Assembly (NCBI RefSeq): GCF_016629665.1
Contig: NZ_JAEPRQ010000001.1
Coordinates: 868,001-932,000 of the forward strand
Length of the DNA: 64,000 nucleotides
Source of the DNA: Paracoccus caeni
GTDB taxonomy: Bacteria > Pseudomonadota > Alphaproteobacteria > Rhodobacterales > Rhodobacteraceae
Direction of reading: 5' to 3'
Shown: one piece after another, positions 10,545-58,851 of the stretch
How positions within the stretch are numbered: the first letter of the stretch is position 1
Layout: the number at the start of each line of letters is the position of its first letter
Notes under the pieces: generated by a model
The model's input: the letters and a program-made list of their open reading frames with translations, nothing else
What the model was told of the DNA's origin: nothing
Databases searched by the model: none
Made by a program: the position numbers and the translations under genes

Positions 10545-11203
10545 GCGCGCCTTTGGTCAGGTCCGATCAGGGGGTGACCGTGATCGGCGGCGGGGCGGTT
10601 CTGGCCGGGGAATTGCGCGATGCTTTGACAGCGGCGCCGTTGCTGGTTGCGGCTGACAGCGGGGCGGATCAGGCGCTGGAACTGGGGCATCGGCCCGATT
10701 GGGTCATCGGCGATATGGATAGTATCGGCGACGCGGCGCGGCGGGCGATGCCTGCGGATCGGGTCGTCGAAGTGGCCGAGCAGGACAGCACCGATTTTGC
10801 CAAATGCCTGAGCCGGATCGAGGCGCCTTTTGTCATCGCGGTGGGCTTTGCCGGATTGCGGCTGGATCATACGCTGGCCGCGCTGACGACCATGGTGCAG
10901 GACGGGTTTCCGCGCGTTATCCTGTTGGCTTCAAACGATATTGTCTTTGTCGCGCCGGAGGAGTTGCGGCTTCCGCTGACAGCGGGTGTCAGGGTGTCTC
11001 TGTTTCCAATGGGACCTGCGCGGGGGCAGAGCGAGGGGCTGAACTGGCCCATCGACGGGATCGAATTTGCGCCCGGCGGCAGGGTAGGGACATCGAATGT
11101 CGCGACCGGGCCTGTCCGGTTGCGGATCGAGGGCAAGATGCTGGTCATGCTGCCGCGCGACTGTCTGGACGTGGTGTTACAGGCGTTAACCGAACAGCCA
11201 TGA
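10541..11203 (+). CDS. thiN: thiamine pyrophosphokinase
   Basis: A 220-residue enzyme that transfers pyrophosphate from ATP to thiamine. Family motifs are ADSGAD near residue 40, GDMDSIG near residue 60 and EQDSTDFAKC near residue 85; the acidic residues bind Mg-ATP. The ATG overlaps the DUF2842 stop by four bases. No THI-box riboswitch is visible, as expected inside an operon. It is followed by a member of the first dispersed repeat family. Confidence 0.9.
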   Translation: MSAPLVRSDQGVTVIGGGAVLAGELRDALTAAPLLVAADSGADQALELGHRPDWVIGDMDSIGDAARRAMPADRVVEVAEQDSTDFAKCLSRIEAPFVIAVGFAGLRLDHTLAALTTMVQDGFPRVILLASNDIVFVAPEELRLPLTAGVRVSLFPMGPARGQSEGLNWPIDGIEFAPGGRVGTSNVATGPVRLRIEGKMLVMLPRDCLDVVLQALTEQP

Positions 11204-11204
11204 C

Positions 11205-11348
11205 CGGGCCGGGGGCGTTGCATCGGGTGTTTTCGCAACAACGGAATGCCAACGCGGTTTGGGCCAGCAAATGCTGAGGTTTCGCCTGCACAAAGCGTGC
11301 ACCGCGCAGACACCGGATGTGCACAGGGCGTACACCGCTTGCGAACGG
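11205..11348 (-). repeat. dispersed repeat family 1, copy A (11-bp phased units plus 23-nt hairpin)
   Basis: Read on the minus strand this intergenic block starts with a TTCGCAAGCGGT-like lead-in, then four degenerate 11-bp units at 11333-11290 (GTACGCCCTGT, GCACATCCGGT, GTCTGCGCGGT, GCACGCTTTGT). A CAGCATTTGCTGG-like segment follows, and the block ends with a 23-nt hairpin at 11217-11239 with GTTGC/GCAAC arms. The same layout recurs near 54.1 kb and, in parts, near 39.3 and 26.8 kb. It sits between thiN and an unknown membrane-protein gene. The function is unknown. Confidence 0.8.
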
Positions 11349-11368
11349 TCGGGTAAGGAAATCGTTGC

Positions 11369-12916
11369 ATGAGCGAGAAGATGCAGCCGCTGCAACGAAA
11401 GTTCGAGGATACGGCGCAGATTTCTTATGCCTCAGGGTATCTGGGCGGGCGACCGGCGACTGGCGGCGAAACTCGCTTTCTGCGGCGATTTGGCGGGCGG
11501 GTGCGGCTCGTCAGTCTGATTCTGTGCTGGCTGTCGCTGTCGCTGATGCTGTCGCCGTTTCTGCTGGCCGCTGGCTTCATTTTATATCTGTTAAAGATGA
11601 CTTTTAGCTGGCCGCCGGATGGCAGCTTTGTGGCCATGGCGGCCATATTCGTTCCGGCGGTGCTGTTTTTGTATTTTCTCTTGATAAAGGCTTGGGGCCG
11701 GTCGCTGCTGGCTTTTGTGCGCGTCTCTCACAGACTGAGGCTGCCGACAGAGCCTCGGATCGCGTTCTTTGATACTCGTCTTGAGGTGATGTCGCATCCG
11801 ACCGCAGGTTTGCAGAACATCTTCGCTATCAATGGCCGCCCCGTCGATATTCCCAAACATTGGGAAAAGGAAATCATCAAGCGGTTCGGCGAAAACCGCT
11901 ATGGACTTCGCTGCAGGGCCGGACTTCTGCGGCTTGAAGGGGCCTCGGACGAGGTGATCAGGTTCAGCGCCCGGCGAGAGAATGTGTTTGAGCGGATCGA
12001 CAGCGTTTTCCCCGATCTAGGGACGGTGGTGGTCGCGTTGGATGATCTGTCGATCGCCAGCGAGACAGAGGCGCGGTTGCCGCTGATCCGGGCTCAGCAA
12101 CCGATGCTGGCTTTCGGGATCGTTTCCATGATCCTGGCGGGGCTGTTTGCGTGGGTCCTGTGGGCCATGCAGGACATATCGCAGGACAAGGTCGAGGCGA
12201 TGCGGCGGGATCTGATGGGGCAGGCGACGGCGCAGCTTCTGGATGTCGAGGGGCTGGCGCGGCGGGGATTTCGGGATCTGCAGATCGAACCGGGTGAGGT
12301 GCAGTTGATTTCGGGCGCGGCATTCGAAGCCGTGCGGGTGCAGGTTCAGGGCGAGGATCTGCCGCGACTTTTGCTTCCGGGTGAGGCGGAGGCGTTAGAG
12401 AAGGCGCTTGATGGCGACGGGTCCTGGACGGCGCAGCATGCCGACAGGATGCGCCAGAAGCTGAGCGACATGGCGCGGAATTTGCCCGATCCGACCGCGC
12501 AGGGCCTGCTGCGCGACATCGATATGATCCCGGTCGAAATGCTTCCAAGCCTTCTTGGAGGTGAGACCCCTCTTACGCTGGCAGAACCGGATTTGCTGCG
12601 GTCTCTGATGCCAAAGCCCACGGTTTACGCGGTCTGGCCCGGTCCGATGACGCGCTGCCGACCGGATGCCAATTGTCGTCTCGACGCGCAGCCGCAGCTT
12701 TTCGAGGATTGGCGGATCATCGCGGCGAGGGATGGGTATCAGGTGCTGACCGGATGGGAACGCGAGCGCGCCGAGACCAAGATCGAACGAATCGAGGCAC
12801 CGCGCAGCAGATTGCCGATCATCTGGGGCGGCATCGCTGTCGTCGCGGCGTTCGGCCTGTGGCTGGTCCTGTCTTTCTTGCTTGCAAGACGCAGGATTCG
12901 GCGGACGAGAGTTTAA
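11369..12916 (+). CDS. unknown membrane protein with four predicted helices
   Basis: A 515-residue protein that I do not recognise. Predicted membrane segments lie at about residues 46-76, 87-110, 246-266 and 485-505. A soluble region of ~130 residues sits between helices 2 and 3, and one of ~215 residues between helices 3 and 4. The latter contains two Cys in RCRPDANCRL and looks extracytoplasmic. The tail LLARRRIRRTRV is basic, as expected on the cytoplasmic side. No catalytic motif was found. The next gene, a secreted protein, starts 63 bp downstream on the same strand and may act with it. Confidence 0.7.
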   Translation: MSEKMQPLQRKFEDTAQISYASGYLGGRPATGGETRFLRRFGGRVRLVSLILCWLSLSLMLSPFLLAAGFILYLLKMTFSWPPDGSFVAMAAIFVPAVLFLYFLLIKAWGRSLLAFVRVSHRLRLPTEPRIAFFDTRLEVMSHPTAGLQNIFAINGRPVDIPKHWEKEIIKRFGENRYGLRCRAGLLRLEGASDEVIRFSARRENVFERIDSVFPDLGTVVVALDDLSIASETEARLPLIRAQQPMLAFGIVSMILAGLFAWVLWAMQDISQDKVEAMRRDLMGQATAQLLDVEGLARRGFRDLQIEPGEVQLISGAAFEAVRVQVQGEDLPRLLLPGEAEALEKALDGDGSWTAQHADRMRQKLSDMARNLPDPTAQGLLRDIDMIPVEMLPSLLGGETPLTLAEPDLLRSLMPKPTVYAVWPGPMTRCRPDANCRLDAQPQLFEDWRIIAARDGYQVLTGWERERAETKIERIEAPRSRLPIIWGGIAVVAAFGLWLVLSFLLARRRIRRTRV

Positions 12917-15324: not shown

Positions 15325-15350
15325 TTCGGTGCGTGCGAAGCACGCACCCT
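15325..15350. repeat. small palindrome of the GTAGGGTGCGTGC type
   Basis: A 9-bp perfect stem (GGTGCGTGC, loop GAA, GCACGCACC) followed by CTACG, just after ispG. The same sequence in either orientation recurs at 57588-57611 and 58813-58837, with a shorter relative at 57558-57575. Palindromes of this type are widespread in Gram-negative genomes and may help termination or mRNA stability. Confidence 0.75.
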
Positions 15351-15367
15351 ACGGTCGTTTGTTCGAA

Positions 15368-26364: not shown

Positions 26365-26721
26365 ATGGCGATGGAGATCTATTACGACGGCGAATGTCCG
26401 TTCTGCAGCCATTATGTCGGGCTGCTGCGGCTGCGGGAAAATGTCGGGCCGGTCGAGTTGATCGACGCGCGCTCGGGCGATCCGAGGGTTGCCGAGCTGC
26501 GGGCTCAGGGGCTGGATTTCGACGAGGGGATGGCGGTACGCCATGGCGACAGGCTCTATCACGGGGCCGAGGCGGTGCGGATTCTGTCGGTTCTGTCACA
26601 GAAGGGCGGGGTGATGCTGGCGCTGATGCGCTCGCCCCGGCGGGCGGCGCTGTTTTATCCGCTCATGCGCGCGATGCGCAATCTGACGCTGAGGGTGATG
26701 GGGCGCAGGCCGATCGGCTGA
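26365..26721 (+). CDS. DCC-family (DUF393) thiol-disulfide oxidoreductase-like protein
   Basis: A 118-residue thioredoxin-fold-like protein with the DCC motif DGECPFC near the N-terminus (Cys11 and Cys14). The ATG at 26365 is preferred over the GTG at 26362; GGAAAGG lies upstream. The family has a predicted redox role. Its gene is divergent from the HTTM gene, 94 bp apart, and the two may act on the same substrate. Its C-terminus is basic (MGRRPIG). Confidence 0.85.
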   Translation: MAMEIYYDGECPFCSHYVGLLRLRENVGPVELIDARSGDPRVAELRAQGLDFDEGMAVRHGDRLYHGAEAVRILSVLSQKGGVMLALMRSPRRAALFYPLMRAMRNLTLRVMGRRPIG

Positions 26722-26749
26722 ATGCCCCGGCGGGCGATGCGCAACATGG

Positions 26750-26858
26750 CGGGTGTTGCTATCGGTACTTATGCAACGAAGAAACCGCAGGGATGCGCCC
26801 GGTTGGCAAATGCCGGGGATTGGGTCGCACAGCGCATACGCCGCTTGCGTAGGGTGGG
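26750..26858 (-). repeat. dispersed repeat family 1, copy D (shortened)
   Basis: On the minus strand the block reads CGCAAGCGGC, a single 11-bp unit GTATGCGCTGT (26839-26829), then CCCGGCATTTGCC, a TTTCTTCGTTGC segment and the 23-nt hairpin at 26755-26777 with GTTGC/GCAAC arms. Compared with the copy at 54.1 kb it lacks three of the four 11-bp units, as if they were deleted or never amplified. It lies in the gap between the DCC gene and the repeat-protein gene; the rest of that gap shows nothing. Confidence 0.7.
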
Positions 26859-26955
26859 CGCTGGGCGGGACCGCTTATGGAGAAAGGAGCGCGCCCGGTC
26901 CGGGTGGGGAAGGGGCGCGATCCGGTGCTGTGTTTTGTGGTCCGGTCAGGCTGGA

Positions 26956-38745: not shown

Positions 38746-39234
38746 ATGATGCAGACTGGCTTGGGCCTGATGCCCCGTCTTGGCGCGATGCTGATGGCGG
38801 TGGTGGTGACGCTGATCCCGATCGCCTCGGGCGCGCAGCAATTGGCGGCATTGCGCGCCAGCGATGCGATGAAATATTTCGACGCGATCTGCGGCGGCAC
38901 GCTTCCGAATTTCGAGAATGCGCCTGCCGCGCTTCAGCAGAACGGCTTTCAGCAATATAGCACCGGGACATGGTATCTGCCGGATCAGTCGGTCTCGATC
39001 AAAATCATTGAGGGGCCGGGTATGGGGCGGACCTGCTCGTTCGTGGCCAATTCGACGGATGGCGAGGCCGGGATCAAGGCCGCTGTGGCGGCGTCCCTGC
39101 CGGGCATCGATCAGACCGCTCCGGGTCTTGCGCTTTATCCGAAAACGCAGGCGCTGGTTCAGTTGAACCCGCAGATGGGGCGGATGGGCGACGTGACGAT
39201 CTTTGGCCTGCAGATGCTGTCCGACCGGAAATAG
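38746..39234 (+). CDS. unknown secreted protein between rplA and rplJ
   Basis: A 162-residue protein with a hydrophobic N-terminal signal ending SGAQQLAAL. The mature part (MKYFDAICGGTLPNFENAPAALQQNGFQQ...GRTCSFVANSTDGEAGIKAAVAASLPG) has two Cys that could form a disulfide. I recognise no family. The ATG at 38746 has GAGGG ten bases upstream; the frame is also open from a TTG at 38728. It breaks the usual direct succession of rplA and rplJ and is separated from both by its own flanks. Confidence 0.7.
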   Translation: MMQTGLGLMPRLGAMLMAVVVTLIPIASGAQQLAALRASDAMKYFDAICGGTLPNFENAPAALQQNGFQQYSTGTWYLPDQSVSIKIIEGPGMGRTCSFVANSTDGEAGIKAAVAASLPGIDQTAPGLALYPKTQALVQLNPQMGRMGDVTIFGLQMLSDRK

Positions 39235-39299
39235 GGCGGGGCGCGGCCGGGGTTGCATGATTGCCACGGCCAAGCGCAATCCTTGCCCCGGCAACGGCC

Positions 39300-39412
39300 A
39301 GCGCGCGTTGTCGGTGTACGCGCTGTGCACATCCTGTGCATGCGCGGTGGACGCCCTGTGCCGCGGTTTTCCCAATAATTGCTGGTGCCAAGCGAAATCT
39401 GCATCGACAAGC
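39300..39412 (+). repeat. dispersed repeat family 1, copy B
   Basis: Four 11-bp units run from 39316 to 39359 (GTACGCGCTGT, GCACATCCTGT, GCATGCGCGGT, GGACGCCCTGT), followed by CCCAATAATTGCTGG. The terminal hairpin of the other copies is not recognisable here. The block ends about 20 bp before the candidate rplJ promoter. Gap 39235-39690 otherwise holds only that promoter and the rplJ leader. Confidence 0.75.
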
Positions 39413-40699: not shown

Positions 40700-40883
40700 G
40701 AACCTGTCTTGAAGGACGGTTTGCGGCTTTCGCAGCGTCAGACCTTCCCTCAGGGCATGTTCGAGGTTCGGGAGTTGTGCGGTGGGACGCACGACACGAA
40801 TGGAACCTCACCCCTACATTCGTAGGCGCAATCCGGGGGCCCCGACCCGGAATGCGCGCGAAGACGAAAGGTGACGAGACCCC

Positions 40884-53211: not shown

Positions 53212-54026
53212 TGAAGGTTCAGATGCTGGGACTGTGCCGCTTCTCCTATCTGGGGCTGCGCGGGTTTCAGACCGACCATGACAGCATCGAGGCCCGTCGC
53301 GCTTATCTCTACGACCCTCTGCGTCTGGCCCGCCGCTGGCTGTGGTTCACCGAGGTGGCGCTGCCCGCATGGGCCCGTCAGACCGATCCCGATTTCACGC
53401 TGGTCATCATGACCGGCCCCGACCTGCCCGAACCTTACCTGTCGCGGCTGCGCGAATTGACCGAACAGATCCCGCAACTGCGGCTGGAGCTGGTGCGGCC
53501 AATGCAGCACCACCTGCCAGCCTGCCGCGCGGCGATTGCCCCCCATATCGATCCCGAGGCCGAGGTGATCGGCCATTTCCGCCATGACGATGATGACGCG
53601 GTGGCGGTCGATTACATCGCCTCGGCCCGCAAGGACTTCAACCGGGTCAAGGGGCTGTGGAAGGTGGAACAGCGTCTGGCGCTGGATCATTCCCGGGGGC
53701 TTATCCTGAAAGCCGGGGCAGGGGGGCTCACCCTGACGCCGCGTATCTGTCACAATATGGGCGTGGCACTGACCATCTTCCTCGCGCCGGACATGGCCGA
53801 GACGGCGCTGACCTATGACCACAGCAAGCTGCCGCAATGGATGCCGGTCGTCTCGATCACCCGGCCGGTAATGTTCCTGCGCTCGATCCATGCCGACAGC
53901 GATTCCGGCGATATCGGCCCCGGCCTGCCATGGGAGATCGAGGAAGGCGGCACCGACCGCCTTCTGAAACAGCGCTTCGGCCTGAAGCGCGCCGCGCTGG
54001 AAAAGTCGCTGACGGGACTTAGCTGA
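53211..54026 (+). CDS. putative rhamnosyltransferase
   Basis: A 271-residue protein from the ATG at 53211, which overlaps the EamA stop. The pattern LGLCRFSYLGLRGFQ near the N-terminus, WARQTDPDFTLVIMTGPDLPEPYLSRLREL, and the acidic cluster GHFRHDDDDAVAVDYI (a DxD-like metal/sugar-nucleotide site) match the putative rhamnosyltransferase family. With the FkbM methyltransferase two genes away it may modify surface glycans. Confidence 0.82.
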   Translation: MKVQMLGLCRFSYLGLRGFQTDHDSIEARRAYLYDPLRLARRWLWFTEVALPAWARQTDPDFTLVIMTGPDLPEPYLSRLRELTEQIPQLRLELVRPMQHHLPACRAAIAPHIDPEAEVIGHFRHDDDDAVAVDYIASARKDFNRVKGLWKVEQRLALDHSRGLILKAGAGGLTLTPRICHNMGVALTIFLAPDMAETALTYDHSKLPQWMPVVSITRPVMFLRSIHADSDSGDIGPGLPWEIEEGGTDRLLKQRFGLKRAALEKSLTGLS

Positions 54027-54069
54027 ACTCGGTCATCACGGCGCGGTAAATGATGCCCTACGCAACACC

Positions 54070-54212
54070 CACCGTTCGCAAGCTGTGTACGCCCTGTGCA
54101 CAACCTGTGCATGCGCGGTGGACGCCTTGTGCAGCCAAATCCCCAGCATTTGCTGCCTGAAACCACATGGCCGCTTCTTCGTTGCAAAAATACCGGATGC
54201 AACACCCGCAAC
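54070..54212 (+). repeat. dispersed repeat family 1, copy C (most complete)
   Basis: A lead-in CCGTTCGCAAGC is followed by four 11-bp units from 54087 to 54130 (GTACGCCCTGT, GCACAACCTGT, GCATGCGCGGT, GGACGCCTTGT), then CCCCAGCATTTGCTGCC, a TTCTTC segment and the 23-nt hairpin at 54181-54203 with GTTGCA/TGCAAC arms, ending in ACACCCGC. It lies in the 531-bp gap before rpsL, ~105 bp upstream of the candidate promoter. Confidence 0.82.
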
Positions 54213-54316
54213 CCCTCGCCACGCCTCTTGGAAAAGCCCGGACCAGCGCCTAGATGGATCGGGACGGCACGCCATATGGGCGCGTCCGGCACCCTCGGCA
54301 TGGCCGGGTGGTTCTG

Positions 54317-57557: not shown

Positions 57558-57611
57558 GGTGCGCTTCGGCGCACCCTACCAACCCCGTAGGGTGTGTGCT
57601 TCGCACGCACC
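57558..57611. repeat. two adjacent palindromes between fusA and tuf
   Basis: A GGTGCGC-TTCG-GCGCACC hairpin (57558-57575, followed by CTACC) and GTAGGGTGTGTGC-TTC-GCACGCACC (57588-57611) fill the gap. They belong to the same family as the palindrome after ispG and the one after tuf, and could tune expression or stability of the operon message. Confidence 0.7.
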
Positions 57612-58812: not shown

Positions 58813-58837
58813 GTAGGGTGCGTGCTTGGCACGCACC
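58813..58837. repeat. GTAGGGTGCGTGC palindrome after tuf
   Basis: GTAGGGTGCGTGC, loop TTG, GCACGCACC. It stands between the tuf stop and its terminator. Confidence 0.75.
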
Positions 58838-58851
58838 TTGCTATCAACCAG

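Follow-up and report, generated by a model that had tools for sequence, protein, structure and literature searches.

The window analysed here, a 64,000-nucleotide stretch of a Paracoccus caeni contig, harbors a full copy of a non-coding mosaic element of ~159 bp in front of the rpsL-rpsG-fusA genes. The element runs from CGCAAC to GTTGCG, and its borders were taken from an alignment of the best 30 BLAST matches together with their flanks. The block at 54070-54212 that had been noted in the initial annotation lies inside the element, which starts 9 bp further left and ends 8 bp further right. Four copies are present in the window. The genes preceding them end at 54026, 11203, 26721 and 39234, and two of the copies precede ribosomal-protein operons (by eye). 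The features are as follows.

54061..54220, plus strand: full copy, preceded by the gene that ends at 54026 and followed by rpsL-rpsG-fusA (gene names by eye); its right end is decayed, with CCCCTCGCC in place of CCGTTGCG
54083..54137, plus strand: five-unit 11-bp array of this copy (CTGTGTACGCC, CTGTGCACAAC, CTGTGCATGCG, CGGTGGACGCC, TTGTGCAGCCA)
54143..54156, plus strand: mini-palindrome CCAGCATTTGCTGC (consensus CCAGCATTTGCTGG)
54175..54194, plus strand: 3' motif TTCTTCGTTGCAAAAATACC, in common with a motif dispersed through the family
54181..54203, plus strand: 23-nt hairpin, GTTGC-N13-GCAAC
11201..11359, minus strand: copy flanked by a gene that ends at 11203 (by eye, resembling thiamine pyrophosphokinase) and one that starts at 11369
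11283-11337, 11264-11277 and 11217-11239, minus strand: five units, palindrome and hairpin, respectively, of the 11201 copy
26740..26865, minus strand: decayed copy behind a stop codon at 26721, with most of the array gone (only unit 5, CTGTGCGACCC, is recognisable)
26755-26777, minus strand: hairpin of the 26740 copy
39290..39406, plus strand: copy lacking the 3' cassette and with a degenerate palindrome, its five units at 39312-39366 (read by eye); it follows the gene that ends at 39234 and precedes the rplJ-rplL-rpoB region (gene names by eye)

A covariance model run over the whole genome places the window copies at exactly the four blocks for which one common layout had been proposed. Arrays are present in three of these blocks, as described initially, and each holds five units rather than the four first counted. 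The "CAGCATTTGCTGG-like segment" is there as well and is a short palindrome, and the hairpin of exactly 23 nt attributed to three copies is indeed seen in three of the four, the 39290 copy being without it. A 27-nt three-unit array pattern (up to two mismatches) matched 12 times in the window, all within three copies, compared to 0.03 matches expected from shuffles. The window also contains the Rfam Rhodo-rpoB RNA (RF03074, 67.5 bits) at 40765-40856 on the plus strand, upstream of rpoB.

In a complete element, five 11-bp units (consensus CKGTGYA) are followed by the CCAGCATTTGCTGG palindrome, a linker that varies and a 3' cassette that contains the 23-nt GTTGC/GCAAC hairpin. In plus orientation the consensus reads:

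left end, first segments of the element: CGCAACACCCACCG, then TTCGCAAG
five 11-bp units, after TTCGCAAG: CTGTGTACAGC CTGTGCACATC CTGTGCATGCG CGGTGCACGCC CTGTGCAGCCA
3' of unit 5: AATCC, palindrome CCAGCATTTGCTGG, linker of variable length
3' of the linker: 3' cassette, TTCTTCGTTGCAAAAATACCGATTGCAACGCCCGCA..CCGTTGCG

A BLAST search of the genome itself (4.19 Mb, 20 contigs) with 54070-54215 gave at least 40 matches (every one of the 40 candidates scored, out of 97). The covariance model, which was built from 27 of the 30 aligned copies (two copies with long linkers and one decayed copy were excluded), located 73 places at E ≤ 0.001, a possible floor as 150 of 1745 first-look candidates were scored. 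Scores of at least 115 bits were reached at 52 of the 73 places, and the weaker places include partial and decayed copies. Thus, the tens of intergenic copies with conserved 11-bp spacing that had been foreseen for a genuine repeat are in place. The counter-reading, that GC-biased or low-complexity sequence in a GC-rich genome resembles itself by chance, could draw on the small copy number visible within one window; given E-values down to 1.8e-49 at these 73 places, 12 array matches where shuffles yield almost none and backward-pattern controls of 0, its probability is negligible, and this outcome, named initially as one that would count against the repeat, is ruled out.

The hairpin was used to choose copies for analysis of the array, which avoids selection on the array itself. 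The pattern for the 23-nt hairpin had 54 matches in the genome, as opposed to 0 for its backward control, and 53 of these copies formed the set (C16:46043, which has no model match, is absent from it). GTG occupies at least four of the five canonical phases in 50 of the 53 copies (50 of 54 on the stricter count) and all five in 46. Mismatch to the consensus is 3.9% at GTG compared to 23.9% at other array positions, which bears out the early description of a dispersed repeat with constrained 11-bp phasing. When periods of 7 to 15 were compared, 11 was strongest (z 4.75, permutation p 1.5e-4), followed by 10 (z 2.23). The five array offsets recur unchanged in other species, where clear changes in array length are by whole units (six in L157, four in L185). 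The other exceptions, read by eye, are ~1-nt shifts in the distance from unit 5 to the palindrome, GTG motifs that have lost letters and false palindrome matches; one locus listed with six in-phase GTG (L208) was doubtful on reading and was left out.

Arrays of one genome share an identity of 0.74-0.79, close to the 0.72-0.78 seen across species (124 arrays); inside this genome it is 0.78, and to other genomes it is slightly lower, 0.73-0.75. Full-length identities are inflated for the 63 named loci, as these were selected with units 1-2 and the unit-3 GTG fixed in the search pattern, and GTG figures are likewise inflated in the 167-array set used for composition and covariation, which required at least three in-phase GTG, making the 53-copy figures the fairer ones. 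With the free positions near saturation and the core held, the pattern is that of selected sites and not of copies decaying after a recent burst. The dinucleotide that follows GTG is a pyrimidine-purine step in 50, 52, 33, 39 and 42 of the 53 copies for units 1-5, respectively, and flexible steps of this type (T-G, Y-A) repeated on one helix face would be a hint of DNA bending. The strict 11-bp spacing points to a protein that recognises the DNA along one face.

The ends of the element carry inverted repeats, CGCAAC...GTTGCG, of 6 bp in most copies and up to 9 bp in some (e.g., L010), and the 3' cassette holds a second pair, GCAACG/CGTTGC, in addition to the 23-nt hairpin. The parts of the mosaic also occur separately: the 39290 copy, C11:1227241 and C18:179257 have no cassette, and C13:531240 and C14:470814 are nearly cassette alone. 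Among 22 repeats inspected outside this genome (22 of the 28 loci from the genus model search, as taken into the alignment), most are without TTCTTC..AAATACC inside the element. The cassette motif is also scattered independently of the element: TTCTTCGTTGCNNAAATAC (one mismatch allowed) was found in 32 of 81 genus genomes and at as many as 84 places in a single genome, with 0 matches for the backward controls. A looser form was found in 25 of 41 family genomes, nine of them with at least 16 places and the others with down to one, and at no place in this genome; its backward control matched once overall. By eye, and read in gene sense, the motif often comes after a G/C-rich hairpin as GGGTATTT, and genomes tend to favor their own middle word (GTTGC, GTTCC, TTTGC, TGTGC, TTGGC, CTCTTT), with some mixed. 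As the cassette motif is dispersed alone and the outside repeats mostly lack it, the repeat in this genome combines a Paracoccus array element with a family-wide gene-end motif.

A motif of the form CTTCNTC-N3-GC-NN-AAATAC(C/T)CC is seen at window positions 54175-54194 and 26764-26783 and in many genomes of the genus and family (the family taken to be Rhodobacteraceae), e.g., L252-L281, and motifs of this type are sometimes arranged in inverted pairs. Their middle word tends to vary between genomes and to be largely constant within one, as if it followed a trans-acting partner.

The element is concentrated at gene ends. Gene calls came from a home-made codon scorer, some of whose calls are wrong (a convergent ORF was missed at 26740), and on these calls the 65 of 73 copies that could be classed (the other eight overlap a gene or lack a neighbor) comprise 28 convergent, 33 tandem and four divergent contexts. 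The named Paracoccus loci gave 21 convergent, 14 tandem and one divergent context for 36 of 39 copies, three copies at locus edges being left out and loci with no located array or right end uncounted. Since gene order alone makes convergent and divergent gaps about equally numerous, ratios of 28:4 here (binomial p 1.9e-5) and 21:1 in the named species (p 1.1e-5) are far from even. A comparison with the other gaps of the fetched loci (39 tandem, 32 divergent, 10 convergent; Fisher p 4.7e-5 for 28/65) was dropped as a background: it is biased because the loci are centred on the element, and the gap beside a convergent one tends to be divergent.

Distances to stop codons were compared with random placement of each copy within its own gap, gaps with more than 600 nt of spacer or with an overlapping gene being omitted. 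Of the 41 copies with a gene ending towards their right end, 30 have the stop codon no more than 10 nt from that end, where 13.9 are expected (p 5e-5); in gaps with 40-600 nt of spacer the count is 17 of 28 (3.6 expected). For the left end the counts are 13 of 40 (11.8 expected) and, in the wider gaps, 7 of 29 (3.5 expected, p 0.045). Anchoring on the right with little or none on the left identifies the cassette end as the part that hugs stop codons, so that this association may stem from the 3' cassette, a gene-end motif found across the family in its own right, and not from the array. In the named species, where elements are mostly without a cassette, right-end distances are looser, from -13 to 191 nt (25 copies).

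Another hairpin, GTAGGGTGCGTGC..GCACGCACC, likewise dispersed and of GTAG-REP type, borders many copies on their left in this genome, which is without a Y1 transposase match, and often fills the space where left-end distances are larger. The window holds five matches to it (up to two mismatches; 1.45 expected), including 15340-15352 (minus strand), 57587-57599 and 58813-58841.

The initial annotation had proposed either a bound protein or a structured RNA. Our data favor the protein-on-DNA branch and leave the RNA branch weak, covariation being nearly absent. As an RNA, the element would form a plus-strand chain of hairpins between neighboring units with a role in the 3' UTR (stability, processing or termination), a reading that we regard as improbable. 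RNAalifold does return a structure of 30 pairs in which one-sided changes that keep pairing go mostly to G-U, as would be predicted for an RNA; compensatory change is seen in one of the 30. The top 25 mutual-information pairs listed for the 167 arrays do not join complementary unit halves, none of them resembling a pairing of GTG with YAC. Folding of 40 arrays relative to shuffles shows a mild excess on the plus strand (mean z -1.6, compared to -0.65 on the minus strand), and a location behind stop codons would suit a 3' UTR structure. However, GTG persists without its complementary half: in unit 5 GTG is present in 52 and YAY in 0 of the 53 copies, and in unit 3 the counts are 47 and 28. The element also lies in both orientations relative to transcription, at 17 and 16 of 33 tandem contexts here and 10 and 4 of 14 in the named species (p 0.18). 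One terminator-like site is located on the minus strand at 54208-54194 (the stretch has two such sites, with 0.7 expected), and a scan of the 11201 copy found none inside the element. Rfam gave no family within the element at gathering score and one chance-level match at E ≤ 5. The near-absence of covariation, the retention of GTG without a pairing half and the occurrence of both orientations thus favor direct reading of the DNA.

The model, applied at E ≤ 1e-4 under strict filters that may miss weak relatives (48 and 29 candidates scored per genome in the genus and family runs, respectively), matched 22 of 61 sampled genus genomes, this one included, and, in a family sample of 100 genomes, only this genome, with 0 of 98 genomes from other genera. 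A DNA search of 61 genomes, 37 of them from the genus, gave matches in 16, all within the genus. An exact 33-nt array pattern found 63 stretches in 84,980 named genomes, all titled Paracoccus, the genus of the window. There was no match among 72,556 plasmid and 50,697 phage records, collections that may omit entries from this genome or one very near to it. On a MutL tree of 29 genomes (29 of 30 rows; G017 was dropped by the program), presence and absence are scattered, requiring eight changes by parsimony, at least four of them forced; here "absent" denotes a genome in which the model from this genome's copies, under strict filters and with 48 candidates scored per genome, gave nothing at E ≤ 1e-4, so that a diverged family would be entered as absent. 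Given that scatter, a single origin of the family on this tree was rejected. In G036, closely related by MutL, no member of the family was detected, and this, together with the patchy occurrence, indicates that the element is not essential.

Individual sites have mixed histories. Counting only matches whose neighbors are at least 60% identical (lower-identity, far-off or "other"-orientation matches were uncounted), 17 of the 63 named foreign loci carry the element in a gap orthologous to one occupied here, 15 in the same and two in the opposite orientation; by our estimate, chance would give such a match at roughly 2% per locus (73 sites, some 3,500 gaps). These orthologous sites are concentrated before murB (six foreign loci), in the pepA/holC gap (four) and at C14:115792 (three) (gene names by eye), and the three sites are each common to four to seven species, this one counted. 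Before murB, the elements of seven species can be aligned with one another, unlike the sequence on their left. Copies at orthologous sites are barely more alike than other cross-species pairs (0.79 compared to 0.76 at murB), and at C14:290928, one of four sites, they are less alike (0.67 compared to 0.69). Other sites are lineage-specific. Behind mutL this genome has the element; in G036, which has the same convergent neighbor, the gap is 9 bp, and none of the other 29 mutL loci showed an array within 400 bp (in a few of them, the stop codon was placed wrongly, inside the next gene). In the relative L152, ~20 bp separate the homologous flanks of the C2:5105 site. Copies do appear or vanish.

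A TTAA-N7-TTAA-like pair lies to the left of the murB-site element at C11:1033982 (L110), with variants in several of L132, L136, L139, L145, L161 and L167. The pair resembles a CtrA site, and the element before murB may sit inside a cell-cycle regulated promoter.

These histories bear on whether the repeat is a non-autonomous, MITE-like mobile element that is tolerated at gene ends, its conserved pattern being a requirement of the transposase. The many copies, the terminal CGCAAC/GTTGCG words and the lineage-specific occupancy of the mutL gap and of C2:5105 agree with that explanation, and the depletion from divergent gaps would follow from selection against insertion into promoters. It could likewise account for two sites at which a relative has the element behind the same gene end in the orientation opposite to that found here (L129 versus C14:49003; L159 versus C11:91681), an arrangement that points to repeated targeting or local inversion. 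We nevertheless hold it to be rather unlikely. Target-site duplication left no signal in 50 copies (best 3-mer excess, 5, with 2.4 expected), and no longer parent or autonomous relative with the same right end was seen, all 37 of 37 exact right ends falling in known copies (a search that would miss diverged ends). The Y1 (RAYT) transposase, which is associated with REP sequences and is not required of every REP, had 0 matches in this genome by PF01797, a test of the Y1 family only whose control was positive in 5 of 14 genomes. Moreover, the sites common to four to seven species and the concentration of change in the free positions of the 11-bp units, as opposed to an even spread, argue against this explanation.

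We consider it probable that the repeat is a REP/BIME-like gene-end element of Paracoccus, a kind of punctuation at gene 3' ends that acts mainly as DNA, with its phased array bound or wrapped by a putative protein. The genome has some 70 copies of it in either orientation, in excess in convergent gaps and anchored to stop codons by the right end, with the 11-bp phase under constraint and both shared and lineage-only sites. The five GTG-centred units on one helix face would allow cooperative binding of a putative DNA protein, or wrapping, for which a nucleoid protein or a gyrase-like enzyme would be candidates. The array would then act where transcription from two genes meets, with an effect on topology or termination, and the short palindromes and the 3' cassette may assist transcription ending. 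It is conceivable, and we offer it tentatively, that this DNA platform for a putative protein, built on five GTG sites, marks dozens of gene ends as a nucleoprotein or topological barrier at convergent transcription, that is, as a gene-end insulator. Were that true, it would be an insulator-type gene-end system of a kind for which we found no bacterial description in the open-licence literature. Gene-end repeats are common in bacteria and the reason for their persistence is disputed. The fixed five-site 11-bp code with drifting letters between, the presence and absence among sister species and the coexistence of shared and lineage-only sites make this family a tractable case, suited to asking if such repeats are selfish or serve the chromosome.

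REP/BIME sequences serve as binding or cleavage sites for gyrase, IHF or Pol I. In PMC3733652, they are described as high-copy and intergenic, located mainly in convergent or unidirectional gaps downstream of coding regions, with some touching stop codons; REPs are 20-40 bp palindromes tagged GTAG or CGTC, and those of E. coli are gyrase targets. Our element shares with REP/BIME, as portrayed there, its high copy number, intergenic location at gene 3' ends and preference for convergent or unidirectional gaps, and it differs in its length of ~159 bp, its ends without a GTAG/CGTC tag, its five phased 11-bp units and the lack of a Y1 match in this genome. The CIR repeats (Caulobacter methyltransferase-associated intergenic repeats), according to the available text of PMC2229807, are ~110 bp, alphaproteobacterial and intergenic and contain a conserved GANTC site, and a table in that source enters their target duplication as a question mark. 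They resemble our element in size, intergenic location, alphaproteobacterial host and a target duplication that is not established; by contrast, GANTC is present in just 3 of 73 element copies, and that text does not mention an 11-bp array for CIR. With the MITEs (Correia/NEMIS, ERIC, RUP), as covered in the same portions of PMC2229807, the element has in common that it is short and dispersed with short terminal inverted repeats. Unlike them, it has mostly 6-bp terminal repeats, with no target duplication seen in its copies and no parent transposon found.

Iteron arrays of plasmid or chromosome origins consist of one array at the origin beside the initiator gene. The element has the same kind of direct, binding-site-like units, repeated at one helical turn (the 11-bp phase), and differs in lying at 73 scattered places at gene ends instead of forming one origin array. 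The available portions of the open-licence PMC literature, including PMC2229807, PMC3281130, PMC3733652 and PMC5107571, do not describe this repeat. The initial annotation could name no family for it, which stands for the sequence, and its placement matches that of known REP/BIME-type repeats. The element looks like a relative of the known bacterial gene-end repeats that is itself new.
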